Origin: a virus
Strand: one strand, 5' to 3'
DNA length: 30,128 nt
IMG/VR virus record: IMGVR_UViG_3300047546_000224
Coordinates: 1-30,128 of that record
Within the stretch, counting starts at the first letter, position 1. The number at the start of each line of letters is the position of its first letter. Under the pieces are notes generated by a model. The model saw only the letters and a program-made list of their open reading frames with translations, did not search any database and was not told where the DNA came from. The translations under genes and the position numbers were made by a program. This document shows positions 9,644-29,363 of the stretch, piece after piece.

Positions 9644-9995
9644 TAACCCGATGCCGATTCGAAAGACGGTATTTAATAAGGAACATATTAATAAAGTTGT
9701 AAAGAGAGAATTTACAACCTTTACACAACCTGTACCTGAAGATACTCAATTAACAATAGAAGACTTCTTTGCGTTATATGAAGAACTCTTCTACGAAATA
9801 CCTATTAACGGTGAAGCCGGAACCCATGAATACTTAGTTAAAAGAAGCTCAGAATTATATAAACTAAACGACTCGACTGACGATATACAACCTCTTTTAG
9901 ATGAAATAACTAATTTAAGAGCACAGATTATAGATAACGAAACCGAGATTATTGCATTACAAGAACAAGTAGCAAATCAGAATGTCAAAAACTAA
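9636..9995 (+). CDS. small baseplate-block protein with C-terminal coiled coil
   Basis: 119 residues overlapping the previous gene by 8 bases and the next by 14. The N-terminal part is mixed ([20 protein letters not shown]...), the middle acidic and aromatic ([15 protein letters not shown]), and residues about 82-116 form a clean coiled coil ([30 protein letters not shown]). Such short linkers sit beside the large baseplate protein in contractile phages. It may trimerise with its neighbour; no family name is supported. Confidence 0.7.
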
Positions 9996-12900
9996 TTACA
10001 TAGTATCGAAGGGGTTTCCTGACGAATTAGAAATATATACTAGGAACCTAAATCCTAAAGATAAAGCCTTAGTAGATAGTTTCTACCTCAACAGTAGCTT
10101 TAAGCCTGATAAGCATACAATAGAAATGCACGTATATGGGCTTAATGATGAACGTCTGTTTTCTGTTCCTTCTTACTTCCCAGAATACTCTAATGTAACT
10201 TACACACAATATCAAGCAGGTAAAATATCTGAGATAAATATATCTCCAGAAGTTGATGCTCAACAGTTAGGGTTTAATTACGGTCAAGTTAGTATTCTAT
10301 ATAACTTCCTTAGTAATCTCTATAGCGATTCAAATTTTATATTTGAAGGAAATTTCTTCATTGAAGATATCTCTGCAGACCGTACTGAGATCTTAGCATT
10401 AAGTAATGAGCTATCTCTTACAGATTTAATACGATTTACATCAGACTTAAAAAGAAAGTTAGATACATTATCTTATTTTCAAGACTTTAGAGTAAATTTT
10501 GGAGATAATAAGTTACTACTTGGAATAAATGTAGATCTTATAGATTATAGAGGAGGTAAAGCTCTTGCTATAAAATTATACGAACCTCTTCCTGAAGAGT
10601 TTGAAATAAAAGATACCTTCAGGGTAGTAGAAATAATATCAGATTCAATTTCATTTGAAATAGATACAGAAACTATACCTGAAGAAATAGTATACCCTAA
10701 TTTAAAAGGTCCTAATTTTGATATAGAATTAGTAGAGGATAATAATAACCCTACTGGTTTCTTTAATTATAATGAATTATTTAGCTATCCAGTTACTAGT
10801 TCATACTACGAATTATATTCTTTATTTGAAGAAAGTAGTGCTCAAATTAGCATAGATCATAGTAACTATTCAGACTTTATTAATTTTTCATCAGCAGAAG
10901 AACGATTAAGAAATTTTAAGTACAAAATAGATTTAATTAAGTCTTACGAAACTTCATTACAGACATTAAGCAACACCGGATATACTAGATTCGGTATTAC
11001 AGGAAGTAGAGATTATTATGAATCGTTAATTGAAGGTATAATAAATAATTTTGATCACTACGATAGATTTTTATACTTTGAAAGCGGTTCTAATAGTTGG
11101 CCAAAATCTAATAATACAAGACCGTATACGAACCAAGCTAGTACAACAGTACAAGCTACTAACTGGTATACTAATCAACTTTCAATCGCTTCAAATTTTG
11201 ACGTAAGTAATTTAAACGCACTTACTAATACTCTACCAATCTTTTTAAGAGAAGATACAGATAATAACCCTGCTCTTATATTCATCAATATGCTAGCACA
11301 GCATTTTGATAACATATGGATATACCAGAAAGCAGTTAGTGATAAGTATGATGCAGATAACAGAATAAACTTTGGTATATCAAAAGACTTAGTTAGAACT
11401 ACCTTAGAAAACTTTGGAGTTAAACTATATAATAGTAATTTTAACTTAGAGTCTATCTTTGGAGCTTTTATAGGAGAATCTTATATATCAGGTAGTGAAC
11501 AGATAAATAACTACCAAGTAATTACATCTGGTTCTACAAACGCATATCTACAACCTATGCCGTTTGATAACTATCAAAAAGAAATCTACAAAAGAATATA
11601 CCACAACTTACCTCTACTTACAAAATCAAAAGGTACAGAGAGAGGCTTGAGAGCTTTAATTAACTCATTTGGTATACCTTCTCAGATATTAGAAATAGGA
11701 ATCGCTGGAGGTCAGAAAATAGGACCAGGTTTCTACGGACCTACTCAATTACATTATAGTTCATCTTTGAAATTAAGAACTGATAATGATGGTACTATTG
11801 TAGCAGGAGATACATTATCTGGTTATACTTCTATTGTTAGAAGAGAGTATGAATACTCAGATGATTTAAACTTTATAGAAGTAGGATTAGCTCCTTCTAA
11901 AAACATAGATAATTATATAGTTTCTCAAAGTGCTGTATTAGGTTTCTCTAACTTTAACATTGATGATTATATCGGGGACCCTAGAGATTCTTATAAATCA
12001 GAATATACATCTCTAGAGAAACATCGTAAAGTAGTATTAGGTAATTTAGATCGATACGATTTAATGGACTACATTAGATTGATTCGTTTCTTTGATAATG
12101 CTTTATTTAGAATTGTAAAAGATTTTATACCAGGTAGATCAACAGCAATTACCGGTATAATAATTAAACCGCATAAACTAGAAAGAAATAAAGCAAAGCA
12201 TGTAAGTGTTAGTACTATCTTCCAGGATTATTCTGGATCGATAGATACTGCTTTTATGGTTGGAACCCATGGAGGATCCTATACTCAGTTAGTAGAAAGA
12301 AGTACAGCATATGCAGAACGAATAGTAGTTCCTTCTGGATCTGCCATGACTTTTAGACATAACTATGAAGAACCTAAATTTAACGGAGAATTAAGCGGAA
12401 GTAGAATAAGAATATCAAATGGAGAATTAAACAGAGGTAATAAGGTTAAGAAAACATCTCAACCTGAATTAGCGTTTAATATAACATTCCTTAACGCATC
12501 TAATACTATACCTAGAGATTGTACAATTCAATTTACTGCGATACAAGTCACACCTGCACCTACCGCAGCTCCAACAGCTGCTCCAACTCCTGCACCTACC
12601 GCAGCTCCAACAGCAGCACCTACACCTGCACCAACAGCAGCTCCTGTAACTCCTAGTCCTACTGCCGCTCCTACTCCTAGTCCAACAGCTAGTCCAACTG
12701 CTGCTCCTACTACACCATCTCCTACCCCTAGTCCGACAGCAGCACCGGTAACTCCTAGTCCGACAGCATCACCAACAGCTAGTCCTACACCTAGTCCTAC
12801 ACCTGAACCTACTCCTAGTCCGACTGCTGAACCAACAGCAGCACCAGTTTCATCTCCAACAGGAGGTGGCGGTGGCGGAGGTGGCGGAGGTTGTCTACTT

Positions 12901-13374
12901 GAAGGAACCCCTATACTAATGGCAGACGGATCTACTAAAAATATTGAAGATTTAACTATTGGAGATCAAGTTAAAAACTTTAGCATAGAAGGTTTAGATA
13001 CTAATGGAGATGCTTATAAAACTTGGAATACAGGAGAAATAAACATAACACCTTCTACTTCTATAGTAACAGCTATATATCCAGATACGTTCACTAGTTA
13101 TTATAGAATCAACAACCTCTTGAATATAACATTTGAACACCCAGTATTAGTTAAACAAGGTAATGAATATAGCTTTAAAGCAGTAGCTGCACTTAGAGTA
13201 GGAGACCATTTATTAAATAAAGACGGGGAGTGGATTGAAATCTTAACTAAGGAGTTGATAACAGAAACTGTCGATGTATATAATATTAACGTAGAGAGTC
13301 AAGATACTTATTTCGCTAACGGTATATTAGTTCACAACCTAGAAAACGCTCCTAACGAAAAACAAATTACATAA
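9982..13374 (+). CDS. large baseplate protein with Pro/Thr/Ala stalk and C-terminal Hint domain
   Basis: 1130 residues in three parts. Residues 1-850 are a tail/baseplate structural protein; [20 protein letters not shown] near 417 and the [17 protein letters not shown] motif at about 550 resemble the P2 gpI-type tail protein family. Residues 857-960 are a P/T/A/S-only stalk, and 961-970 are ten glycines. Residues 971-1119 are a Hint module: Cys971 opens [20 protein letters not shown], block B has ITFEHPVLV (TxxH), and the end is [21 protein letters not shown] with His1118-Asn1119. Only 11 residues follow, starting with Leu. Self-cleavage at Gly-Cys and after Asn is plausible; extein ligation is not. 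Position after gp6 suggests a wedge or tail-periphery role. Confidence 0.85.
12550..12861 (+). repeat. Pro/Thr/Ala/Ser stalk-coding repeat
   Basis: This segment codes for PTAAPTPAP- and PTPSPTASP-type repeats and contains a perfect 26-base direct repeat (12553-12578 and 12589-12614). Alternating GCA/GCT and ACA/ACT/ACC codons elsewhere show the peptide is better conserved than the DNA. It is markedly richer in C than the genome and prone to length change by recombination. The ten-glycine codon run follows at 12862-12891. Confidence 0.85.
12892..13338 (+). other. Hint (hedgehog/intein-type) self-processing module inside the 9982 gene
   Basis: 149 codons from Cys971 to Asn1119. It has the N-terminal nucleophile Cys, the TxxH of block B and the terminal His-Asn pair, and no room for a homing endonuclease. 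The residue after Asn is Leu, not Cys, Ser or Thr, which fits a bacterial-intein-like cleaving domain rather than a splicing intein. Confidence 0.8.
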
Positions 13375-19621: not shown

Positions 19622-20068
19622 ATGGGAATAACTATGCCGTCATGGATATACGATGGCCGAATTGTCAATGAAATAAGTGACATGCCTGAAGGCACTTTTG
19701 GCTTTATTTACGAAGTAACACATACTCCAACAGGGAGAAAATATATAGGAAAAAAAGTTCTATATTTTAACAGAACATTACCACCTTTAGCTGGACAAAA
19801 GCGAAAGCGAAAAGTAGTAAAAGAGTCTGACTGGAAAGATTACTATGGATCACATCAAGAAATAGTAGGGTTAATAAAAGAAGGTAAACAAGAAGAATTT
19901 ACCAAGCAAATACTATGTTATGTTAAGTCTAAGAAACTTCTTACATATTATGAGACTAAATACCTATTTATTAAAGAAGTACTAGAATATAGAAACAACT
20001 ATATTAATGACAACGTACTTGGAAAATTTTATAGAAAAGACTTTTTAACACCAGATACAGATGATTAA
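19622..20068 (+). CDS. GIY-YIG endonuclease-like protein
   Basis: 148 residues. The GIY-YIG core is visible: GFIY at 27-30 (FIY in place of GIY), ten residues, then KYIG at 40-43, a basic loop (QKRKRKVVKESDWKDYYGS) and the likely metal-binding Glu111 in YYETKYLF. These features resemble Seg/homing-type nucleases of T4-like phages, in single-domain form with no separate DNA-binding module. It has its own host-type promoter after the fibre operon. It may be a free-standing homing nuclease or a DNA-processing enzyme; it overlaps the next gene by 8 bases. Confidence 0.75.
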   Translation: MGITMPSWIYDGRIVNEISDMPEGTFGFIYEVTHTPTGRKYIGKKVLYFNRTLPPLAGQKRKRKVVKESDWKDYYGSHQEIVGLIKEGKQEEFTKQILCYVKSKKLLTYYETKYLFIKEVLEYRNNYINDNVLGKFYRKDFLTPDTDD

Positions 20069-20849
20069 ATTACGTGAAATAGTAGGACTGCCAAGCTTGC
20101 AGTACCATATTGATAACGGATTAACCCTACATGAAAACGTTTATCGTTACTCTTCAGAAGCATTTGTAAAGTTATTTACAGAAGCTAGAGAAGCTTATGA
20201 GAATGGAGATATCGAATTAAACGAAGAAGACGAAGATTTAATTAGAAATACAGATATAGGTACTCATGGAGACTACAACGGGATGGTTGTACCTTTAGAC
20301 TTACCAATGGTTTCCCCTAGCTACAATCCTTTATTTGAAATTGGATGCTGGATTGATGAAATGATCGAAGATGATACTAAGATAGATGAAGCTACTTCTA
20401 TTGATGAGATGATCGACTTCGACGCTGTTAAAGAAGCAGTAGAGTCAATCGGTGCTAAGATCGATATGGATAAGTTTAGAAAAGCTGTTAAACATCAAAA
20501 CGATACGTTTGATTATAACGGATTTGAAATACTAAAAGCATCTGTAGATTATATACAAGAGGTAGAATATAAAGGAAAAAAAGTTCAATTAAATAAACCT
20601 AAGCGTGGAGGAAGTAAAAAATTCTACGTTTATGTTAAGAATCCTAAAACTGGAAATGTAAAAAAAGTATCATTCGGTGATACAGGTCTTTCAGTTAAAT
20701 TTAAACAACAAGGCGCTAGAGCATCATTTGCAGCACGTCATAAATGTGCTCAAAAGAAAGATAGAACAAAAGCAGGTTACTGGTCTTGTAATATTGGCCG
20801 ATATTGGAAGTCACTTGGAGGAAGTTCTAACTTCTCTGGATATTGGTAG
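20061..20849 (+). CDS. phage accessory protein with DUF5872-like C-terminal domain
   Basis: 262 residues. The N-terminal part (HENVYRYSSEAFVKLFTEAREAY..., IRNTDIGTHGDY..., VVPLDLPM) and the C-terminal about 75 residues (KKFYVYVKNPKTGNVKKVSFG, ARHKCAQKKDRTKAGYWSCNIGRYWKSLG) are both modules I recognise from many marine phages; the latter looks like DUF5872. The C-terminal domain is basic, with two cysteines and many aromatics, which would suit nucleic-acid binding, but no function is established. The middle is acidic (IDEMIEDDTKIDEATSIDEM). It opens the accessory run. Confidence 0.75.
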   Translation: MIKLREIVGLPSLQYHIDNGLTLHENVYRYSSEAFVKLFTEAREAYENGDIELNEEDEDLIRNTDIGTHGDYNGMVVPLDLPMVSPSYNPLFEIGCWIDEMIEDDTKIDEATSIDEMIDFDAVKEAVESIGAKIDMDKFRKAVKHQNDTFDYNGFEILKASVDYIQEVEYKGKKVQLNKPKRGGSKKFYVYVKNPKTGNVKKVSFGDTGLSVKFKQQGARASFAARHKCAQKKDRTKAGYWSCNIGRYWKSLGGSSNFSGYW

Positions 20850-20852
20850 TCT

Positions 20853-21224
20853 ATGAAACTTACAAACATTATTTTAGAGAAAGAAGAAAAAGTTGACGAA
20901 CTTAATGCCAAGCAACTATTCACAGCAGCAGGTATTGGATTAGCTACTTTAGGAGCACCTAATATGGGGAAATCTCAACAAAAAGAACCAACACCAATTT
21001 CTCAAACTACTCAACAAAAAGATACTACTATAACTGGCTTTGGTCTAGGTAAATCACCTGATCTAAGAATTGCTCGACAAATGGCAAAGATGAGAGCAAC
21101 TGCTGACTTAATGCAGAAAATGAAAGTACAGACTCTCAAAGCAGGTATAGAAGTAAAGAGTGAAAAGACTTTTGAAACAAGCAATGGATACGAAGTAGAA
21201 GTTACTGTTGCAATATCTCAATAA
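20853..21224 (+). CDS. E9-tagged small protein with LPP20-like domain
   Basis: 123 residues. It begins with the shared tag MKLTNIILE followed by K10. A short hydrophobic stretch follows at about 27-40 (LFTAAGIGLATLGA), then a polar Q/T linker. Residues about 62-123 (GFGLGKSPDLRIARQMAKMRATADLM..., ending EVEVTVAIS) look like the G-x-G-x-S-x-x-x-x-x-A-x-x-x-A-x-x-x-A pattern of LPP20-type domains, usually in lipoproteins. There is no lipobox. The gene lies 3 bases after the DUF5872-like gene. If the tag is a capsid-targeting sequence this would be an internal head protein. Confidence 0.7.
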   Translation: MKLTNIILEKEEKVDELNAKQLFTAAGIGLATLGAPNMGKSQQKEPTPISQTTQQKDTTITGFGLGKSPDLRIARQMAKMRATADLMQKMKVQTLKAGIEVKSEKTFETSNGYEVEVTVAISQ

Positions 21225-21225
21225 T

Positions 21226-21537
21226 ATGAAACTTAAAGATATATTAATAGAAGGAAAAGCATTTGATGAGTTTGCAGAAACTCGAATGAAAGGAGCAGAA
21301 AAGATAGCTGATAATGCTAAGGAGAAAGGTGGACCTTCTATGTTAACCTATCACCACTTTAAGGTAAAACTTCCTTACTACGAGAAAGCTAGTAAAGGAG
21401 ATTTTGACTTTGAAGCAGCAAAAAAAGAATTCAAAGAAACTTTAAGCAAGATATCCTTAGAAATGGACCAAACTACTTTCCAGAGAGAGGTAGGGCGTCT
21501 AGAAGTACTAGGAGAGTTAATTATCAAGAATGACTAA
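21226..21537 (+). CDS. E9-tagged small phage protein of unknown function
   Basis: I place the start at the ATG at 21226, one base after the previous stop, giving MKLKDILIE-G and a 103-residue protein. A start six codons earlier is open but would run back into the previous gene and mask the tag. The body is helical: ETRMKGAEKIADNAKEKGG, then MLTYHHFKVKLPYYEKASKG and a final FQREVGRLEVLGELIIKND. I recall similar small proteins in marine phages without function. It overlaps the next micro-ORF by 8 bases. Confidence 0.75.
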   Translation: MKLKDILIEGKAFDEFAETRMKGAEKIADNAKEKGGPSMLTYHHFKVKLPYYEKASKGDFDFEAAKKEFKETLSKISLEMDQTTFQREVGRLEVLGELIIKND

Positions 21538-21628
21538 TAGAGAAAAGAAAGAAGCTAATCGTAAAAAGATAGCCAAAGCCACTGTTAAACAGCAACAGAA
21601 AAAAGGCAACTACAAAAAGAAGACTTAG
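21530..21628 (+). CDS. 32-residue highly basic micro-protein
   Basis: ATG at 21530, overlapping the previous stop, and TAG at 21626-21628, one base before the next ATG. The peptide has 11 Lys, 2 Arg and only 2 Glu, ending QQQKKGNYKKKT. The exact fit between two genes with overlapping or abutting ends supports a real gene. Such a peptide would bind DNA or RNA non-specifically; a DNA-condensing head component is possible but unproven. Confidence 0.6.
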   Translation: MTNREKKEANRKKIAKATVKQQQKKGNYKKKT

Positions 21629-21629
21629 T

Positions 21630-21890
21630 ATGCTTCCATTTGAAGAAGAATTAAAAGAAGGTTATTACATTAGGACGTTTGATTCTAAGACTCCTGTAGA
21701 CGAATTCGTATGGCATAGAGACCAAGAAGATCGATGGATAGAACCTATTGGAGAAACTGATTGGAGATTCCAATACGATAACGAAGTTCCGATTCCTCTA
21801 CAAAAGCTATTTATTAAAGCAGGAACCTATCATAGAGTAATTAGAGGTACCGGCACATTAACCTTAAAGATTATTAAACAAAATGGCTAA
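21630..21890 (+). CDS. small cupin-like phage protein
   Basis: 86 residues. The sequence VWHRDQEDRWIEPIGETDWR, then FQYDNEVPIPLQKLFIKAGTYHRVIRG and TLTLKI, follows the beta pattern of a one-domain cupin-like fold, with histidines in WHRD and YHRV placed like metal ligands. Similar WHRDxxDR proteins occur in T4-like marine phages. No reaction can be assigned. It begins one base after the basic micro-ORF and overlaps the next one by 8 bases. Confidence 0.75.
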   Translation: MLPFEEELKEGYYIRTFDSKTPVDEFVWHRDQEDRWIEPIGETDWRFQYDNEVPIPLQKLFIKAGTYHRVIRGTGTLTLKIIKQNG

Positions 21891-22011
21891 AGCAAAATCA
21901 GCAGGAAGTTCTCAAAAAGTAAGCTTCGGTAAAAGAAGTCAAGGTAAACCTAAAAAGAGTTACGGCCCTAAAGAGGAAAAACCTAAAAAGTATAGAGGTC
22001 AAGGACGATAA
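21883..22011 (+). CDS. 42-residue basic protein, KYRGQGR tail
   Basis: ATG at 21883 overlaps the cupin-like gene, and the TAA at 22009-22011 shares its last base with the ATG of the kinase-like gene. The peptide has 11 Lys, 3 Arg and 2 Glu, with a repeated K-P-K-K-(S/Y) motif (QGKPKKSYG, EKPKKYRGQGR). I recall similar KKYRGQG-ending small proteins in T4-like phages. It is probably a nucleic-acid-binding or virion component. The tight overlaps on both sides make it a firm call despite its size. Confidence 0.7.
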   Translation: MAKAKSAGSSQKVSFGKRSQGKPKKSYGPKEEKPKKYRGQGR

Positions 22012-22442
22012 TGAAACTATCGAGAATCATATTAGAAGGTCCAATTGGATATGATCCAGAATATAATGCGATTATAGATAAGATAAAGGACAAAGGCGGT
22101 AAGTATTTAGGTGCTGGAGATTACGGTGCTGTTTATTTACTAGGAGGAAGAGCTGTTAAAGTAACAACAGATGAGATAGAGATAGAACACGCCTTAAAAC
22201 TTCTAGGAAAAAAGACAAAACACTTTGTACATATACACGACGTAAAGGAAATGAATCCTAAATTAGGAGTTATTACGATGGATATAATGGCACCTCACAG
22301 AGGAGAAGTACCAGAAGAGTTTTTAGATGCTTTAGAAAAAGAAGCTAAGAAGTTAGGAATAGATCCTGACGAACTAGATATCCGTCCAGATAACTTTATG
22401 GAAGACCCATCTACAGGTAAAATAAAGATGACGGATGTTTAA
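22011..22442 (+). CDS. E9-tagged truncated protein-kinase-like protein
   Basis: 143 residues. After the tag MKLSRIILE-G come the landmarks of a protein kinase: glycine loop GAGDYGAV at 34-41, AVKV with Lys50, a hinge-like ITMDIM near 88-93, a catalytic-loop match DIRPDN at 123-128 (cf. D-L-K-P-E-N of HRD loops) and TDV at 141-143 with Asp142 where DFG begins. The 14-residue distance from Asn128 to Asp142 is close to that of true kinases. The chain stops right there, with no activation segment or C-lobe helices. It could bind nucleotide; activity is doubtful. Confidence 0.75.
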   Translation: MKLSRIILEGPIGYDPEYNAIIDKIKDKGGKYLGAGDYGAVYLLGGRAVKVTTDEIEIEHALKLLGKKTKHFVHIHDVKEMNPKLGVITMDIMAPHRGEVPEEFLDALEKEAKKLGIDPDELDIRPDNFMEDPSTGKIKMTDV

Positions 22443-22454
22443 AAAAAGTTAAAC

Positions 22455-22461
22455 TATTTAT
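22455..22461 (+). promoter_or_regulatory. TATTTAT element, candidate late promoter
   Basis: TATTTAT in context AACTATTTATAG in the 39-nt gap before the 22482 gene, 20 nt before its ATG. Confidence 0.4.
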
Positions 22462-22481
22462 AGAATATAAACAGAACAGAA

Positions 22482-22955
22482 ATGAGTAATAATTTTGATT
22501 TAAGAAAATTCTTAACAGAGAATAAATTAACTTCTACTGCTAAAGCTATAACAGAGTGGGATGATAAATCTGTTAAAGATTACGCTGATGCAATGTCAAC
22601 CGCTTTTGGTAATAAACCTAAAGATAAAGATAAAGAAAAGTCTTCTGTAAACGAATACGAACATCACTACAGAAAAGTAGGAGGAGAGTGTCGTAAGTAT
22701 AACGACGAAGGTGATTATACAGTAGTTAGTATGCACTACTGCCAGTATAATGAAGCAGAAGAAGAAAAACAAGAAGCTCCAATCAGTGAAATGAATGGCG
22801 GATATGTTGAAGCAATGGGACCAGATTTTGACGAAGCTGTTGATTTACTAAGCCATGCTTGGAATCAATGGAAAAACGGTCCGGCAACTGAAGATGAAGA
22901 TATTGAACCTGCAAAAGCAGATATACTAGAGTATGTTAAATCTCTATTAAAGTAA
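22482..22955 (+). CDS. acidic accessory protein starting NFDLRKFLTENKLT
   Basis: 157 residues, strongly acidic. The N-terminus (MSNNFDLRKFLTENKLT) is a helical leader I recall from several marine-phage proteins; its LTE-N could be a variant cleavage site, but it is not the E9 tag. The middle holds a YEHHYRKVGGECRKYNDEGD segment with two nearby cysteines (ECRK, HYCQ). The C-terminus is helical (FDEAVDLLSHAWNQWKNGP..., ADILEYVKSLLK). No enzyme family is recognised. It ends the run before the terminator at 22984. Confidence 0.7.
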   Translation: MSNNFDLRKFLTENKLTSTAKAITEWDDKSVKDYADAMSTAFGNKPKDKDKEKSSVNEYEHHYRKVGGECRKYNDEGDYTVVSMHYCQYNEAEEEKQEAPISEMNGGYVEAMGPDFDEAVDLLSHAWNQWKNGPATEDEDIEPAKADILEYVKSLLK

Positions 22956-22983
22956 TATTTCCCGAATATTGAAATAACTAAAG

Positions 22984-23010
22984 AAAGGCTTGCTTATGTG
23001 AGCCTTTTTT
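22984..23010 (+). terminator. intrinsic terminator
   Basis: AAAGGCT (22984-22990) pairs with AGCCTTT (23001-23007) across a 10-nt loop, followed by a T-run to 23010. It is the best intrinsic terminator in the window and ends the 19622-22955 transcript. Its right arm and T-tract lie inside the spacer of the next promoter. Confidence 0.8.
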
Positions 23011-23022
23011 CGTATATTAAGG
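22990..23022 (+). promoter_or_regulatory. Bacteroidota-type promoter overlapping the terminator
   Basis: TTG at 22990-22992, 20 nt, then TATATTAAGG at 23013-23022. It shares TTGCT, the CG before the TA and TTAAGGTA with the promoter at 792. It drives the primase gene with a very short leader. Confidence 0.6.
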
Positions 23023-23038
23023 TAATAGTTACGTGTCT

Positions 23039-23965
23039 ATGGAATATACTTTTCTTTTAGGAGCAGTTGAGAACGTTTTAGGTAAGAGTTATAAAAGAGC
23101 AAAAGACAATTATGCATTTACTTGTCCGTTTTGTAATCATAGAAAACCTAAGCTGGAAATCAACTTGAATACAAACGACAAGGGTGAAAATCCTTGGGAA
23201 TGTTGGGTATGTGAAACTAAGGGACGTACAATAAGGTCTTTATTAAAGCAGCTTAAAATAAGCGGACCTCAAGCACAAGAAGTTTTACAATACATAAAGA
23301 AAGGAGAGGAAGTTGAATACCAGGTAGTAAAGACTATAGAACTACCTAAGGAATTCCAACCATTATTTTCTGCACCTACTACATCTTTCTCAGCTAATAT
23401 AGCTAGAAAGTATCTTTACGATAGAGGTATTACAGATAATGATATTATGAAATATAACATAGGTTATTGTATCGCTGGCGAATTCAACGATAGAATAATT
23501 ATTCCATCATATGATCAAAACAATCAATTAAACTTTTACGTAGCTAGGGCTTTCAATAGAAGTTATGCTAAGTATAAAAACCCTGAAGTATCAAAAGACA
23601 TTATAGTCTTTGAAAATTTAATTAACTGGAATCAACCTATAATAATCTGTGAAGGAGTATTCGATGCTATGGCTATTCGAAGAAACGCTATACCGATTTT
23701 AGGAAAAAATATATCAAAAGCTTTACTCAAGAAAATAGTTTCAAGTAAAGTAAAAGAAATTTACATAGCTTTAGATAAAGACGCTTTGAAAAAAGCTGTT
23801 AAGTTTTGTGAACAGTTTATTAGTATGGGGAAAAAGGTATACTTAGTAGATATGGAAGAGAAAGATCCAAGTGAAATGGGTTTTCAATCATTCACCAACC
23901 ACATACAAGATGCAGAAGAACTAGATCTTAGTTCTCTCTTGCAGTATAAATTAAACTTATTATGA
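23039..23965 (+). CDS. gp61: DNA primase, gp61-like
   Basis: 308 residues from the ATG at 23039; a GTG two codons earlier (23033) is a possible alternative start. The N-terminal zinc-binding domain has CPFC at 29-32 and CWVC at 55-58. A toprim domain follows: the conserved Glu in IIICEGVFDAMAI, IYIALDKDAL with the DxD-like acidic pair, and VDMEEKDPSEMG. The order matches T4 gp61 and DnaG-type primases but the protein is short, with no helicase domain. It would make RNA primers at the phage fork with a gp41-type helicase not in this window. It overlaps the nuclease gene by 4 bases. Confidence 0.88.
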   Translation: MEYTFLLGAVENVLGKSYKRAKDNYAFTCPFCNHRKPKLEINLNTNDKGENPWECWVCETKGRTIRSLLKQLKISGPQAQEVLQYIKKGEEVEYQVVKTIELPKEFQPLFSAPTTSFSANIARKYLYDRGITDNDIMKYNIGYCIAGEFNDRIIIPSYDQNNQLNFYVARAFNRSYAKYKNPEVSKDIIVFENLINWNQPIIICEGVFDAMAIRRNAIPILGKNISKALLKKIVSSKVKEIYIALDKDALKKAVKFCEQFISMGKKVYLVDMEEKDPSEMGFQSFTNHIQDAEELDLSSLLQYKLNLL

Positions 23966-24744
23966 TAAAACAAGGAGATAATCTTTTAGTAGAAAGTACT
24001 AAAAATAATCTATCCTACAATCCTGATTTAAAACAAATCAATTTTTTAGATAGAAGAGTCTATAAACGTTCAGAAGGAGTATACTACCCTTCGGTAACAA
24101 CAATACTTCAGTATTTACCTAAGAATAAGTTCTTTGAAAATTGGCTCAAAGACGTAGGACATAATGCAGAAATCATTATGCAAAAAGCAGGTAAAGAAGG
24201 TACTCAAGTTCATAAAGCTATAGAGATATTAGTAGAAGGAGGAGAAGTTAGCTGGATGGATGATTACGGTAATGCAAAATACTCTCAGATTGTATGGGAG
24301 ATGATATTAAAATTTCATGAGTTTTGGTCTACCTATAAACCTAAATTAATATCAACAGAGCAATTTGTATACTCAGATGAATATAAGTATGCAGGTACTG
24401 CTGATTTAGTTATCGAGATGGGAGGAGAGACTTGGCTATTAGATATTAAGACATCTAACGCTTTACATAAGAGTTATGATTTACAATTAGCAGCTTATGC
24501 AAAAGGATTTAAAGAATGTAAAAATGTAGATATTCAACGTACAGGAGTACTTTGGTTAAAAGCAAATACAAGAAGTGCTTCTAAAAAAGAAGGAGTATAC
24601 CAAGGTAATGGTTGGCAGATCAAAGTAGTTGACGAAATAGATTATAATTTCGATTTGTTTAAAACAGTATATAAACTTTACGAATTGGAGAACCCAACTA
24701 CCGAACCTATTTACTCAGCATACCCGACTAGTATAAAACTTTGA
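23962..24744 (+). CDS. PD-(D/E)XK nuclease, RecB/Cas4-like
   Basis: 260 residues. The RecB-like nuclease core is clear: SVTTILQYLP near 44, a GTQVHKAIE helix (His84), Glu133, GTADLVI with Asp148, LLDIKTS with Asp161 and Lys163, then QLAAYA (Gln175). These are the metal-binding and catalytic residues of PD-(D/E)XK exonucleases. No cysteine cluster for an iron-sulfur centre is visible, so it is not a complete Cas4. The ATGA overlap with the primase suggests coupled expression and a role in phage DNA replication, recombination or host DNA breakdown. Confidence 0.88.
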   Translation: MIKQGDNLLVESTKNNLSYNPDLKQINFLDRRVYKRSEGVYYPSVTTILQYLPKNKFFENWLKDVGHNAEIIMQKAGKEGTQVHKAIEILVEGGEVSWMDDYGNAKYSQIVWEMILKFHEFWSTYKPKLISTEQFVYSDEYKYAGTADLVIEMGGETWLLDIKTSNALHKSYDLQLAAYAKGFKECKNVDIQRTGVLWLKANTRSASKKEGVYQGNGWQIKVVDEIDYNFDLFKTVYKLYELENPTTEPIYSAYPTSIKL

Positions 24745-24751
24745 TATTTAT
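24745..24751 (+). promoter_or_regulatory. TATTTAT element, candidate late promoter
   Basis: TATTTAT in context GATATTTATAAG, 20 nt before the start of the P-loop kinase gene at 24772. It overlaps the stop codon region of the nuclease gene. Confidence 0.4.
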
Positions 24752-24771
24752 AAGTAAAGAACTAAACATAG

Positions 24772-25710
24772 ATGAAACTTTCACAACTTATATTAGAAGC
24801 TAAAGCTAGACCAAAAGCCGTTATTATGGCCGGAGGAGCTGGCGCCGGTAAGAGTTACCTTCTAAATCAATTAGATCTAGGAGGGTTAACTATTTACAAT
24901 CCTGATAAGTATGTAGAAGATAAAGAACATCCTTACTACGGTAATTTATCAGCTGCATCTACTCAAGTTACACAAGACGTAGAAGATGCTTCTAATAATA
25001 AAGAGAGTTTTATTTGGGATACTACAGCTTCTAATTCTAAAAAAGTACAAGAACTTTTAGGAAAAGGATATGATGTGTTTATGGTAATGGTATATACTCA
25101 CCCGTTAATTTCCTTTATTTCGAACTTCGAAAGAGAAAGACAGATACCGAAAACCGCAGTATTCTCTACTTGGAGAGATGTTTATCAGCAAATAGGGTAC
25201 TACAAAGGATTATTAAAAGATAACTTTGCATTATTTGCCAATGATAGAGGAGGTAAATACGATAAAGAAATTAAAGAATTTAACGTAGCTGCTAGAAATG
25301 GTTCAAACGGAATCTCAGACTACCTTGCTAAGTACATGGAAGATCATGGAGGAGCTGAAGGTTTTATTTCTACTTTTAGAAAACCTTACGATATTGAAGA
25401 TAAAATTGCTGCTGATGCTTATAGAAAAGAAACAGCTAACATAGATTATAATAGAGAAGATGAATCTATGGATAAGCAGTTAAAAAAATATTGGATGGGC
25501 TTCTATGAAAAAAACGGAACAGGTCCTGGTGATGATAAGATGAAAAAGAAAGTTGCTAGCATAACAAGTGTTAGACAAAAAGCTGAAGAAAAAAATAAAG
25601 AAGTATTAGATAATATTGCCGATATGATTCATAATGCTAAGTTTACAGAACAGTTAAAAGGTTCTACAGTAGCAGAAATTGATCAGAAAGTACAAAACTT
25701 TTTAGCATAA
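24772..25710 (+). CDS. E9-tagged P-loop kinase, zeta-toxin-like
   Basis: 312 residues. The tag MKLSQLILE-A is followed by a P-loop domain: AVIMAGGAGAGKSYLL with Walker A at 21-28, a YNPDKYVED segment where zeta-type kinases bind substrate, and FIWDTTASNSKKVQELLGKG (Walker-B-like D and an SN/T pair). Arg-rich FERERQIPKT and FSTWRDVYQQIGYYKGL segments could hold lid arginines. The C-terminal third is helical and charged. Zeta toxins phosphorylate UDP-sugars; other relatives phosphorylate nucleic acids, and the substrate here is not deducible. It overlaps the next gene by one base (TAATG). Confidence 0.78.
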   Translation: MKLSQLILEAKARPKAVIMAGGAGAGKSYLLNQLDLGGLTIYNPDKYVEDKEHPYYGNLSAASTQVTQDVEDASNNKESFIWDTTASNSKKVQELLGKGYDVFMVMVYTHPLISFISNFERERQIPKTAVFSTWRDVYQQIGYYKGLLKDNFALFANDRGGKYDKEIKEFNVAARNGSNGISDYLAKYMEDHGGAEGFISTFRKPYDIEDKIAADAYRKETANIDYNREDESMDKQLKKYWMGFYEKNGTGPGDDKMKKKVASITSVRQKAEEKNKEVLDNIADMIHNAKFTEQLKGSTVAEIDQKVQNFLA

Positions 25711-26939
25711 TGGCAGTAGTACTATACCCAGGAGCATTTAAACCACCACATAGAGGACATTTTGAATTAGTAAAAGCTTTACTTAAAGGTTCTGCTCAAG
25801 CTAGGGTTTATAGTTTAGATAATCAACAAGATGCTTCTGATAAGTTACTTCAAGGAAAAGGTGAAAAGATAGACCCTATTACAGGAGTAATTATATACAT
25901 TGGAAGTAGTATACGAAACGGTATAGATAAAGATGATTCAAAAGCTATTTGGGATATATACAAAAAATATCTTCCAGGTAACGTAGATATAATCGTAGCA
26001 GATGCTAACCCGATGTTAGTGGCTAGAAGTCATGCTAAAAATAGACCTACTGAAAAGTTCTATGCAGTAACAGGTTTTAGATCTTCTGAAGACTTTCAGG
26101 ATTTAAAACGTATTAGTGCATTTAAAGATCTAGATAACGTACAAGGGTTAGTGGTAAGTGGCGGAGAAAATTCAAATGTTAGAGCTACTAGTTTTAGAGA
26201 CGCAATTTTAAACGGAAGTCTTGATGATGTATTAGATTTTTTTCCTAAAGAGTTATCAAGAGAAGAAATATTAAAAATAGTAGAGATGTTAAAACAAGGT
26301 ATAATAGCCGAAATGATGGCTGAAAAAATAGAAGATGTATATTCAAGCTGGTTTGATAAAGAAACTATCACAGAAAGTTCTTCTGGGATACCTTTACAAA
26401 ATACAGGTATAGTTTCTTCTGAAGATCGTGCTGCTTTAGCAGATCAATTAGAAGCAATCAAATCTGTTATAGATGATAGATTCGAAGCTGAAATGAACGG
26501 TGATCGTATAGTTGTTAAAACGAAAGGAGAATCTCCGTATAATACTTCAGATATGCCTAATAACTACGACTACGGTAATCATTTTGCTGACCTTTTAGAG
26601 TATATGATTAGAGAAGGTTTAACAGTCCAACCATTACCTGAAGTAAAAATACGTAGAGATATAGCTGAAGCAGAAAACTTCTTCGGTAAAACAGCATACT
26701 ATAACCCAGGAGATAAAGAGATTGTTTTATACGCTGCTGGAAGACATCCTAAAGATGTTACTAGGTCTTTTGCTCATGAAATGATTCATCATATGCAAAA
26801 TCTAGAAGGTAGATTAGGTAATAGAGGAACAACAGATACTACTGCAGATAAAGAATTAGCAGCATTAGAAGAAGAAGCATACTTAAAAGGTAATATGATT
26901 TTCCGTAATTGGGAAGATTCTAAAAAAAATAAAAAATAA
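25710..26939 (+). CDS. nucleotidyltransferase fused to an HExxH metallopeptidase-like domain
   Basis: 409 residues. Residues 1-190 are a HxGH nucleotidyltransferase of the cytidylyltransferase/NMNAT type: VLYPGAFKPPHRGHFELVKA with HRGH at 14-17, an FYAVTGFRSSEDFQDLKRI core and NVRATSFRDAIL, where the ISSTxxR-like motif is expected. Residues about 290-409 contain RSFAHEMIHHMQNLEG with HEMIH at 356-360, a zincin-type metal site, and acidic residues downstream (ALEEEAYLKG) that could supply a third ligand. The linker is helical. It carries no E9 tag but lies between two tagged genes. The partner reactions of such a fusion are unknown. Confidence 0.82.
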   Translation: MAVVLYPGAFKPPHRGHFELVKALLKGSAQARVYSLDNQQDASDKLLQGKGEKIDPITGVIIYIGSSIRNGIDKDDSKAIWDIYKKYLPGNVDIIVADANPMLVARSHAKNRPTEKFYAVTGFRSSEDFQDLKRISAFKDLDNVQGLVVSGGENSNVRATSFRDAILNGSLDDVLDFFPKELSREEILKIVEMLKQGIIAEMMAEKIEDVYSSWFDKETITESSSGIPLQNTGIVSSEDRAALADQLEAIKSVIDDRFEAEMNGDRIVVKTKGESPYNTSDMPNNYDYGNHFADLLEYMIREGLTVQPLPEVKIRRDIAEAENFFGKTAYYNPGDKEIVLYAAGRHPKDVTRSFAHEMIHHMQNLEGRLGNRGTTDTTADKELAALEEEAYLKGNMIFRNWEDSKKNKK

Positions 26940-26946
26940 AGGTTAT

Positions 26947-27474
26947 ATGAAAAGTTTATTTGAGTTACTAGAAGTAGAAAAAGAAAAACCACAGTATCAA
27001 ATCTACTGTGATATGGATGGAGTATTGACAGACTTTGAAGAAAGGTTTGAACATTATTCTGGCATGAAACCAGATCAGTATGAGGCAAAACACGGTGCAG
27101 CCGGCTTCTGGGAATTAATAGATAATAAAGTAGGTGTTAAGTTTTGGGTAGGTATGGGTTGGATGAGTGGAGGTAAAGAACTTTGGAATTTTATTTCAAA
27201 GTACGACGCTAAGATATTAAGTTCTCCTTCCCGACATGATAATTCGAGATTAGGTAAAAACTTATGGGTAAAAAATAACTTATCACCAAAACCTAAGGTT
27301 ATATTTGCATATTCAGCAGATAAACAGAGATATGCAAATGCTAATTCAATTTTAATTGACGATAAAAAATCAAATATAGAACAGTGGGAAGCAGCAGGTG
27401 GTATAGCTATCAGATGTCTTCATGGAAATATAGCACCGGTTATAGCAAAATTAAAAGAACTTGGTTATGAGTGA
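26947..27474 (+). CDS. E9-tagged HAD-superfamily phosphatase (5'-nucleotidase-like)
   Basis: 175 residues. The start MKSLFELLE-V keeps Glu at position 9 of the tag. The HAD core follows: YCDMDGVLTDFEE with the nucleophile Asp22 and Asp24, ILSSPSRHD (motif II Ser region), a KPKVIF strand with lysine, and ILIDDKKSNIEQWEAAGG (motif IV acidic pair). Size and motifs resemble 5'(3')-deoxyribonucleotidases of phages, which dephosphorylate nucleotides; other small phosphate esters are possible. It starts 7 bases after the fusion gene. Confidence 0.82.
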   Translation: MKSLFELLEVEKEKPQYQIYCDMDGVLTDFEERFEHYSGMKPDQYEAKHGAAGFWELIDNKVGVKFWVGMGWMSGGKELWNFISKYDAKILSSPSRHDNSRLGKNLWVKNNLSPKPKVIFAYSADKQRYANANSILIDDKKSNIEQWEAAGGIAIRCLHGNIAPVIAKLKELGYE

Positions 27475-28045
27475 GACCTTATTAAAAAAGGAATTTAAAC
27501 AAAGCGATGTACAAAGGGTTAGGAATTTAGTAAATAAAGATTATACTGCTAAGACTAAGTCAAGTGTAGGTTATCAAAAAGAAACTAAACGGTACAAAGA
27601 AGGAGATGTTTGGGAAGAAGCAGGTAAGCAATGGACTATTAAAAACGGAATAAGACAGAATGTAACTAAGTTAGATTCTGCCAAGAAAGCTGTTAGAGTA
27701 CCGTTGAGATGTCCTAAATGTAGTGGTTCTATGGAACATCATCTACATAAAAAAATGTATAGTATTCATAAAATGTGCTTTGACTGTACAATACAATATG
27801 AAGATACATTAAAGAAGACTGGGTTATACGAAGCATATCAAAAGAGAATGATGCAAGGTAATATGCAAGCTTTTGCTATAGATATAGAAGCTTGGGTTTT
27901 AGATTCTTTAAACGATAAAGACAGTTTCGTTACTGAGCAGGGGGATATAGAAGATTGGAAGAGTAATACTTCTAAGTTTAAGAAAGAAGTTTTAGATAAG
28001 CTACAAGAGTACTTAAAACACTTGAAGAGTAATATAGATAGTTAA
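27467..28045 (+). CDS. zinc-ribbon accessory protein
   Basis: Start placed at the ATG at 27467, overlapping the previous stop by 8 bases; a TTG two codons upstream is less likely. 192 residues. A four-cysteine zinc site is visible: CPKC at 82-85 and CFDC at 104-107, separated by 18 residues (GSMEHHLHKKMYSIHKM). The N-terminal 80 residues are basic and helical with VWEEAGKQWTIKNGIRQNV; the C-terminus is acidic and helical. I recall similar CxxC-RCFDC proteins in marine phages, unnamed. Nucleic-acid binding is a reasonable but unproven guess. Confidence 0.75.
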   Translation: MSETLLKKEFKQSDVQRVRNLVNKDYTAKTKSSVGYQKETKRYKEGDVWEEAGKQWTIKNGIRQNVTKLDSAKKAVRVPLRCPKCSGSMEHHLHKKMYSIHKMCFDCTIQYEDTLKKTGLYEAYQKRMMQGNMQAFAIDIEAWVLDSLNDKDSFVTEQGDIEDWKSNTSKFKKEVLDKLQEYLKHLKSNIDS

Positions 28046-28046
28046 C

Positions 28047-28053
28047 TATTTAT
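28047..28053 (+). promoter_or_regulatory. TATTTAT element, candidate late promoter
   Basis: TATTTAT in context AACTATTTATAG, immediately after the zinc-ribbon gene and 29 nt before the ATG at 28083. Confidence 0.4.
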
Positions 28054-28082
28054 AGATAACCTTTTTTATTTAATTTTATATA

Positions 28083-28430
28083 ATGACACAAAAAGAGCTA
28101 CTAGAAGACGTATTATCAGAACTTAAGCATATAAAAACACATATGCCTAACGGTGAGTTGAAGATAATGCTCGAAGATATGAAAGATGTTAAAGACGACA
28201 TTTCAGAGCTAAAGTTTATGCTACTAAACCCAGAAGACGGTCTTGTTGTTAAGACTAATAAAAATACAGATTTCCGTCTTTCACTCCAATCTAATGAAAA
28301 AGAATATCAAGTTAAGATGCAAGAATTAGAAGAGTTAAAGAAGTGGAAAAATGGAGTAAATAAAGCCTTATGGATTTTATTTGCAGGTCTAGCAGCTTTA
28401 TTATTTGAAATGTTACAAAACCATAAATAA
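28083..28430 (+). CDS. coiled-coil protein with C-terminal membrane anchor
   Basis: 115 residues. The chain is coiled coil (ELLEDVLSELKHIKTHM, MLEDMKDVKDDISELKFML, VKMQELEELKKWKNGVNK) and ends with one membrane helix (ALWILFAGLAALLFEML, about 94-110) and a short basic tail. This coil-plus-C-terminal-TM plan resembles XhlA-type lysis accessory proteins, but no endolysin or holin is adjacent. It could also anchor a phage complex to the host membrane. It is followed by one base and the next ATG. Confidence 0.72.
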   Translation: MTQKELLEDVLSELKHIKTHMPNGELKIMLEDMKDVKDDISELKFMLLNPEDGLVVKTNKNTDFRLSLQSNEKEYQVKMQELEELKKWKNGVNKALWILFAGLAALLFEMLQNHK

Positions 28431-28431
28431 T

Positions 28432-28989
28432 ATGAAACTTATTGATATACTTTTAGAAGCCAAACAAATTCAGTATACCAAGCCTAACTTTGAAAACGAA
28501 TGGGAAGAGGCACTTAGATATCCGGAATTTGAAGACATGGGTAAAGAGAAGTGGATAGAGATAGCTAAACAAGGAAAGCCTATCGCATTCTCAAAAATAA
28601 AAGATATATTAGGAAACGTAGATTTAGATTTTGACGGGTTAGAAGAACCTAAAAAAGAGAGATTTAAACAAGCGTTTGAAAAAGGAGTTATAGAAATGTC
28701 TATCGTTGTTAAATTTGGTGAAAACGATTACGACCTAGTAGCAGGAAATACTAGACTTTCAGGATTAGTAAAAAACGGAATTGACCCTCAACTATGGGTA
28801 GTAGATATATCTCACTTAATGGAGATGTTAATGGAAGGGATAGATGATCCTGTTAAACCTGGTATACTAAAGAAAAGATTAGGTACTTTATCTTGTTCTA
28901 AAGTAAGAGCAGAGAAAGCTAAGTTAGAAGATAAAGGAACACACTTTGCGAAAGCATTACAGAGATATTTAAACTACCATTGTAAATGA
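28432..28989 (+). CDS. E9-tagged ParB-like protein
   Basis: Start chosen at the ATG at 28432, one base after the previous stop, giving MKLIDILLE-A and 185 residues; an open frame nine codons upstream would hide the tag. Residues about 85-110 (IEMSIVVKFGENDYDLVAGN TRLSGLVKNG) match the ParB/sulfiredoxin-like nucleotide-binding core, with GNTRL in place of GERRL. A separate C-terminal module (ILKKRLGTLSCSKVRAEKAK LEDKGTHFAKALQRYLNYHC) is one I recall at the end of other phage proteins. ParB-like folds bind CTP or ATP and some are nucleases; activity is unknown. Confidence 0.75.
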   Translation: MKLIDILLEAKQIQYTKPNFENEWEEALRYPEFEDMGKEKWIEIAKQGKPIAFSKIKDILGNVDLDFDGLEEPKKERFKQAFEKGVIEMSIVVKFGENDYDLVAGNTRLSGLVKNGIDPQLWVVDISHLMEMLMEGIDDPVKPGILKKRLGTLSCSKVRAEKAKLEDKGTHFAKALQRYLNYHCK

Positions 28990-29363
28990 AAAAATCAGAA
29001 TTAACCCAAGCTATACGAGAAGTGTTAAGATCTTCTAAAATTCAGAAAGAAGCTGAGGATCATGAAGTATCTATGGCTATAGGTCAGTTAGAAGATATAA
29101 TTAAGAACGCTGGAGAATTGATGTATAAGATAGGACCAGATGAAAAAGATATCCCAGGTTGGATACAAGATCATATATCTCAAGCACAGAACTTTATTAA
29201 CCAGGCTAACACTAGCTACCATGAACTTGAGAGTCAACCTGACCCTAATCAAATGGCATTAGAAGGTAAGAAAAAGAAAGGTGTAGACGGAAAAGCTTGT
29301 TGGGATGGGTATAGATATGGTGGTACGAAAGACGGTAAGGACATCTGTATAAAGGTCAAATAA
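28986..29363 (+). CDS. small phage protein with helical leader
   Basis: 125 residues overlapping the previous gene by 4 bases. The start (MKKSELTQAIREVLRSSKIQ) is a basic amphipathic helix of a type common at the start of marine-phage proteins, different from the E9 tag. A helical domain follows (IPGWIQDHISQAQNFINQAN, TSYHELE), then a small basic tail module (KKKGVDGKACWDGYRYGGTK, DGKDICIKVK) with two cysteines. Both parts look familiar from T4-like phages but have no established function. Confidence 0.72.
   Translation: MKKSELTQAIREVLRSSKIQKEAEDHEVSMAIGQLEDIIKNAGELMYKIGPDEKDIPGWIQDHISQAQNFINQANTSYHELESQPDPNQMALEGKKKKGVDGKACWDGYRYGGTKDGKDICIKVK

Follow-up and report, generated by a model that had tools for sequence, protein, structure and literature searches.

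The closest described counterparts of the system analysed here come from phage T4 and from T4-like cyanophages. Mutagenesis of the capsid-targeting sequence (CTS) of T4 internal protein III (IPIII) assigned targeting to residues 4 and 7 and processing to residues 8 and 10; with Asp at position 10, targeting was kept and processing was blocked (reviewed in PMC9026906). The T4 protein gp24 carries an N-terminal propeptide of 10-20 residues (PMC5694885). Mass spectrometry of virions of the cyanophage S-CREM2 identified a SAM hydrolase, an APH-like kinase, a Cas9-like nuclease, a cytidylyltransferase and unknown proteins; its authors considered that the enzymes might be purification contaminants (PMC10665884). 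A cytidylyltransferase was the only enzyme reported from the virion of S-SZBM1 (PMC9146016). Here we analyse a stretch of 30,128 nucleotides of viral DNA (IMG/VR record IMGVR_UViG_3300047546_000224, positions 1 to 30,128; the window in what follows), in which six genes encode proteins that begin with variants of one nine-residue peptide, or tag. An earlier note on this DNA had read the peptide as a possible capsid-targeting and cleavage sequence. As far as sequence reaches, our analysis supports that reading, and we consider it very probable that these proteins share a T4-type signal for capsid targeting and processing.

Results

The six tags of the window are as follows; the hyphen marks the position after Glu.

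20853..20879, plus strand: MKLTNIILE-K tag of a 123-aa protein (20853-21224), whose family could not be typed in Pfam or PHROGs
21226..21252, plus strand: MKLKDILIE-G tag of a 103-aa protein (21226-21537); ATG at 21226, longest open reading frame (ORF) from TTG at 21208
22011..22037, plus strand: MKLSRIILE-G tag of a 143-aa minimal protein-kinase-fold protein, the mini-kinase (22011-22442)
24772..24798, plus strand: MKLSQLILE-A tag of a 312-aa zeta-toxin-like P-loop kinase (24772-25710)
26947..26973, plus strand: MKSLFELLE-V tag of a 175-aa HAD 5'-3' deoxyribonucleotidase (26947-27474; PHROG 2643, E=1e-23)
28432..28458, plus strand: MKLIDILLE-A tag of a 185-aa protein (28432-28989); ATG at 28432, longest ORF from TTG at 28405

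All six are present where the earlier note had placed them, with Glu as residue 9. The pattern conserved in the tags of the window and its relatives is M-K-Φ-x-x-Φ-Φ-x-E. The HAD tag is the weakest of the six, its residue 3 being Ser rather than a hydrophobic residue. The labels kinase, P-loop and HAD given by the earlier note are supported by Pfam/PHROG and fold matches. The P-loop kinase scores 40.3 bits against Pfam Zeta_toxin (cut-off, 22.3) and fold searches match it weakly to zeta toxin, PezT and polynucleotide kinase; the kinase fold of the mini-kinase was found by a PDB search. The labels 'LPP20-like' for the 20853 protein and 'ParB-like' for the 28432 protein find no Pfam or PHROG match. 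The supported identities of the tagged proteins are a zeta-toxin-like P-loop kinase, a 5'-3' deoxyribonucleotidase and a minimal protein-kinase fold, with a superoxide dismutase (SOD) in relatives.

The gene order of the window runs from T4-like baseplate, tail and fibre genes to an accessory stretch (primase, exonuclease, NMNAT/metallopeptidase-like and small proteins). Judging from sequence comparisons, its source is an uncultured, marine, distant relative of T4 that probably infects Bacteroidetes, most likely Flavobacteria. The closest cultured phage is Flavobacterium phage vB_FspM_immuto_2-6A (immuto; host Flavobacterium sp. LMO8), the primase of which is 65% identical to that of the window and the HAD protein 49%; Microcystis phage Mel-JY01 and Rhodothermus phage RM378 come next. 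The nearest relative contig, G010, encodes a P-loop protein 95% identical to that of the window, and its capsid protein shares 66% identity with that of immuto. The relatives searched comprise about 1.1 Mb of contigs, partly redundant. The tags persist in homologs: Glu9 is invariant across 10-11 homologs of the mini-kinase, the tag is retained in six of seven homologs of the 28432 protein, and most relatives of the HAD protein keep LLxE or LLE. The immuto ortholog of the 21226 protein (62% identical) begins MRLLELLRE-A, and the HAD protein and kinase of immuto start MGNLADLLLE-E and MISIYNILKE-V.

A search of the relatives for tagged starts found the pattern to recur far above chance. It occurs at none of 2,257 internal methionines (window and relatives) in its MKL-type form, of which shuffling the N-termini of the 37 window ORFs predicts 0.01 matches. 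In the relatives, the bodies of ORFs that start with the MKL-type pattern fall into 28 clusters, of which a few are weak or chance matches; some twenty protein families without relation to one another carry the tag. The earlier statement that the protein bodies are unrelated is borne out: they form many clusters with different folds, and a single-family (paralog) reading was rejected. No homolog of the primase (0/53) or of the 27461 protein (0/47) has (L/I/V)xE near its start, making these families clean controls. The exonuclease was rejected as a control, (L/I/V)xE occurring near the start in 44 of 58 homologs.

Every ATG close to an ORF start was considered in the later counts; the automatic start-picker missed several true tagged starts. 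Glu is found at residue 9 in 146 and at residue 10 in 29 of the 185 ORFs that start M[KR][LIF]xxΦΦ (175/185 together); the claim that Glu is always residue 9 thus holds in the window but not in the relatives. Residue 9 is Glu in 79% and Asp in 2%, and P3 is Leu or Ile in 172 of the 175 ORFs with Glu9/10. Of the ten exceptions, five resemble spurious or membrane ORFs; in four others Asp9 is followed a little downstream by a further (V/L)-(I/L)-E. A broad regular expression, [LIVMF]xE within 14 residues, was near background in most genomes and only marginally associated with virion proteins; it was replaced by position-specific patterns.

Purifying selection acts on the tag peptide. For the P-loop family, nonsynonymous differences relative to synonymous ones stand at 0 for the Glu, whose codon varies synonymously only, at 0.25 for the hydrophobic residues -6, -3 and -2 (counted from Glu), at 1.28 for the pair of x positions and at 0.94 directly after Glu, the figures for the core positions being partly conditioned on the search pattern. 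A looser, independent count, which finds the tag in 53/53 P-loop homologs, speaks against an artefact of selection. Many tagged genes are neighbours, and exchange of 5' ends is possible, which would fit copied leader DNA (shared ancestry of the start region) or a translation-start effect as the source of the likeness. We regard this explanation as very nearly negligible: the tag codons differ strongly at synonymous sites (pS about 0.4-1.5) while the key amino acids stay, and lineage-specific variants preserve only the pattern. The peptide rather than the DNA is conserved, as the earlier note had concluded from codon usage.

Counted from the Glu, residues L3, I6, I7 and E9 of the tag correspond to Y4, F7, I8 and E10 of T4, where ipII and ipIII begin MKTYQEFIAE-A and gp24 begins MAKINELLRE-S. 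In this alignment the constrained tag positions coincide with the four key positions of the T4 IPIII CTS. The tag shares with the CTS that it is a short N-terminal peptide common to unrelated proteins, with hydrophobic residues at the equivalents of T4 positions 4 and 7 and a terminal (L/I)-x-E. Targeting is separable from processing in the T4 mutants, and the tag pattern resembles an amphipathic helix (helix 3-11 is predicted, with low confidence); both points would suit a helix that only docks onto the scaffold or virion, the proteins being packaged or attached elsewhere in the virion without being cut. We think this unlikely, because Asp, which would permit targeting, almost never replaces Glu, because Glu moves from residue 9 to residue 10 with (L/I)-x-E kept, and because conservation falls directly after Glu. 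The first two of these observations argue for cutting as well as targeting.

The tag behaves as an add-on to the proteins that carry it. In a tagged SOD of a relative (L126 18179-18826), the alignment with mature SODs of the PDB begins at residue 12/13, the equivalent of residue 2 in bacterial SODs. The SOD body thus starts exactly where the tag ends, and the tag is a pure extension. In the P-loop family each of the 53 distinct homologs has the tag immediately ahead of the P-loop domain, with the Glu invariant and the residues after it variable. In predicted structures the first ten residues have a mean predicted local distance difference test (pLDDT) score of 40 in the P-loop protein and 32 in the mini-kinase, and the bodies are well predicted; in the mini-kinase model the tag is below 50 and the body mostly above 90. 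One relative encodes an in-frame fusion of two tagged proteins (L037 9924-10976), in which the second tag, MKMSDILLE-A, is retained mid-chain directly before the SOD domain; its Met is Ile in L039.

The earlier note had proposed a search for a gp21-like prohead protease. The 30-kb window itself does not contain the gene, but 9 of 12 relative contigs, the nearest included, encode an S77 prohead protease. T4 residues H85, S140 and D168, which we take to be the catalytic triad, are invariant in the proteases of the relatives. In the capsid, scaffold and protease proteins, candidate AIAE-A, IVAE-A and LRE-S sites were assigned by position. The scaffold N-terminus in G010 and immuto is M(A/S)NKDLxKQAIAE-A, and the capsid protein of both has a candidate site, IV(A/S)E-A, near the mature start. 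The comparison with capsid and scaffold sites that the earlier note had proposed yields candidate (L/I/V)-x-E sites by position.

The tagged genes keep company with this machinery. In G010 a gene directly between those for the protease and the scaffold codes for a tagged protein (MKLATIILE), and in a 191-kb relative all five MKL tags fall at 73-99 kb, a region that also contains the protease. In immuto, 10 of 55 late-region ORFs have pattern-matching starts, compared with 4 of 149 early-region ORFs (p=4e-4). Promoter evidence adds nothing, as the T4 late-promoter motif TATAAATA shows no enrichment in the window (10 sites against an expected 8.1) and sigma-70-like sites are below shuffled counts.

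Virion mass spectrometry of T4-like cyanophages bears on the type of tag. Three enzymes of the S-CREM2 virion begin MKDFDSFLEE (SAM hydrolase), (V)KRFDAFLTE-E (APH-like kinase) and MKNFSSFLTE-A (cytidylyltransferase), and two unknown proteins begin MKDLHSFLTE-Q and MQTFSMFFSE-D. A strict T4-derived pattern matches 4 of 217 S-CREM2 ORFs, and each of the four is a virion protein (p=3e-4 when non-structural ORFs are compared, uncorrected for the choice among regular expressions). The NMNAT of the S-SCSM1 virion begins MKSFLQFLKE-A (mass spectrometry in PMC9602691), and the S-SZBM1 cytidylyltransferase begins MRFRQFIIE-A, in the nine-residue register of the window tags. That a tag is common to these enzymes argues against their being contaminants. 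BLAST of the window proteins against the cyanophage genomes with mass spectrometry data found no homologs of the tagged proteins, and the virion evidence therefore concerns the type of tag and the gene neighbourhood, not the same proteins. Judged by titles, none of the searched papers that use 'capsid targeting sequence' deals with cyanophages or flavophages, and the sources of the S-CREM2, S-SCSM1 and S-SZBM1 virion data are not among them; no virion proteome of immuto was found.

The tagged enzymes have plausible intracellular roles, and on this ground the tag might be an assembly or localisation helix of an enzyme complex in the infected cell, with nothing packaged. We give this little credence, as the tags adjoin late structural genes, not genes of replication or metabolism, and cyanophage enzymes with such N-termini do occur in virions.

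Two further phage proteins have sequences of this kind at or near the start. The Cas9-like virion protein of S-CREM2 (L137 7704-10313) has RFASFMAE-A about 20 residues in; its start may have been annotated too far upstream, or it may have a longer propeptide. In a Melnitz-2 phage, a RimK-like ATP-grasp protein (L129 82-1131) has the CTS-like start MTQKFSQFITE-E (TTG start), which suggests an injected host-modifying enzyme.

Four further features of the window concern related or contrasting N-termini.

22482..22520, plus strand: MSNNFDLRKFLTE-N, related tag class, on a 157-aa protein (22482-22955)
28986..29021, plus strand: MKKSELTQAIRE, a weak, possible third tag class, on a 125-aa protein (28986-29363); immuto has the class MKKSxLxxxIxE
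20061..20849, plus strand: 262-aa protein with MIKLREIVGLPS start, a targeting-like half with no Glu at 9/10; candidate cargo, excluded from the tagged counts
23033..24744, plus strand: primase (23033-23965, used as control) and exonuclease (23962-24744), both untagged, inside the tagged cluster

The second tag class, FDLxxFLxE-NKLT, is found on several unrelated proteins (window 22482-22955; L101 10682; L144 3806, 17631 and 18632). Three immuto proteins bear this class, which in immuto includes the start FDLKKFLVE-N. The family of the 20061-20849 protein has the N-terminus MIKLxxIIG(Y/L)PSLQYH..LxE-(N/H)VYRY, in which a candidate (L)-x-E site lies at about residue 24-25. The scaffold proteins of this clade have the C-terminus RRMQKLAGII(K) (L099 17253-18314), and two immuto proteins (L144 11675-12139 and L146 25061-25456) begin MKKQILSEQF(R/K)RMQ(K/F)LAGIITE-S, the scaffold end followed by a cut-like site; starts of this type are possibly a scaffold-mimic loading tag. 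L115 10253-13362 (G001) holds four tandem paralogs beginning MIKL(I/L)D(I/L)LE-NKILVPRRS, outside the tail/head cluster. An 1130-aa tail-region protein of the window (9982-13374) has long APTPAPT repeats and then a stretch ending VHN that by eye resembles an intein/Hint domain.

Discussion

We think it probable that the virus particle contains the tagged enzymes and delivers them into the host by injection. In the mechanism that we infer for the window phage, newly made cargo would dock onto the prohead scaffold core through its hydrophobic residues six and three positions before Glu, the S77 prohead protease would cut after (L/I)-x-E and free the folded enzyme inside the head, and the freed enzyme would leave the head with the DNA at infection. 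Early host control, nucleotide supply and protection from oxidative damage are plausible roles of the cargo.

Several observations weigh against a capsid-targeting and processing sequence. A few early genes, and one that lies with the baseplate genes (window 5853), have similar amphipathic starts. In the nine-residue form P2 is mostly bulky Leu or Phe, compared with T4 sites that, among those considered here, are mostly IAE, LTE or LRE, although T4 gp21 has LIE-9; P1' is unconstrained. Some genes with CTS-like starts went undetected in the S-SCSM1 and S-SZBM1 virions, and looser regular expressions give p values of 0.001 to 0.06 in S-CREM2, where the strict value is itself uncorrected. To these is added the conditioning of the selection figures already mentioned.

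A wider reading, which we put forward tentatively and think rather less likely than its opposite, is that marine T4-like phages use interchangeable N-terminal tags (MKLxxIILE, FDLxxFLxENKL, MKKSxLxxxIxE and the scaffold-mimic EQFRRMQKLAGIITE, which repeats the scaffold C-terminus) as a general injected-cargo code for any enzyme, including host-type SOD, with internal cut sites in fused cargo as well. If the tag of the window clade is a capsid-targeting sequence, as the main reading has it, the T4 targeting peptide would be a general plug-in signal for enzymes such as SOD, nucleotidase and kinases, beyond three small T4 proteins, and the injected proteins of T4-like phages could be found by sequence search in environmental phages without a cultured host. 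The cultured relative immuto supplies testable cargo, and the short tags might serve to package proteins into other phage heads.

Compared with known systems, the tag is best supported, on sequence grounds, as a variant form of the T4 signal for capsid targeting and processing, carried by a wider range of cargo that is rich in enzymes. The CTS of T4 IPI-III is likewise an N-terminal peptide, of 10 residues, with four key positions, (L/I)-x-E with Glu at the cut, and unrelated mature proteins. The tag of the window clade differs in being mostly nine residues long, with Leu or Ile replacing Tyr or Phe, and in sitting on about twenty families, SOD, nucleotidase, P-loop kinase and mini-kinase among them, rather than on three small proteins. 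The gp24 propeptide MAKINELLRE is very close to the tag in spelling, but gp24 is a vertex protein of the shell and not cargo. The ejection proteins of the giant phages phiKZ and SPN3US are similarly cargo that is processed by the prohead protease and leaves with the DNA, whereas their propeptides are mostly much longer, exceeding 100 residues in several. The virion enzymes of S-CREM2, S-SCSM1 and S-SZBM1 have N-termini that fit the CTS pattern, with a different cargo and host, and in immuto orthologs of the window proteins carry tags whose spellings have diverged.

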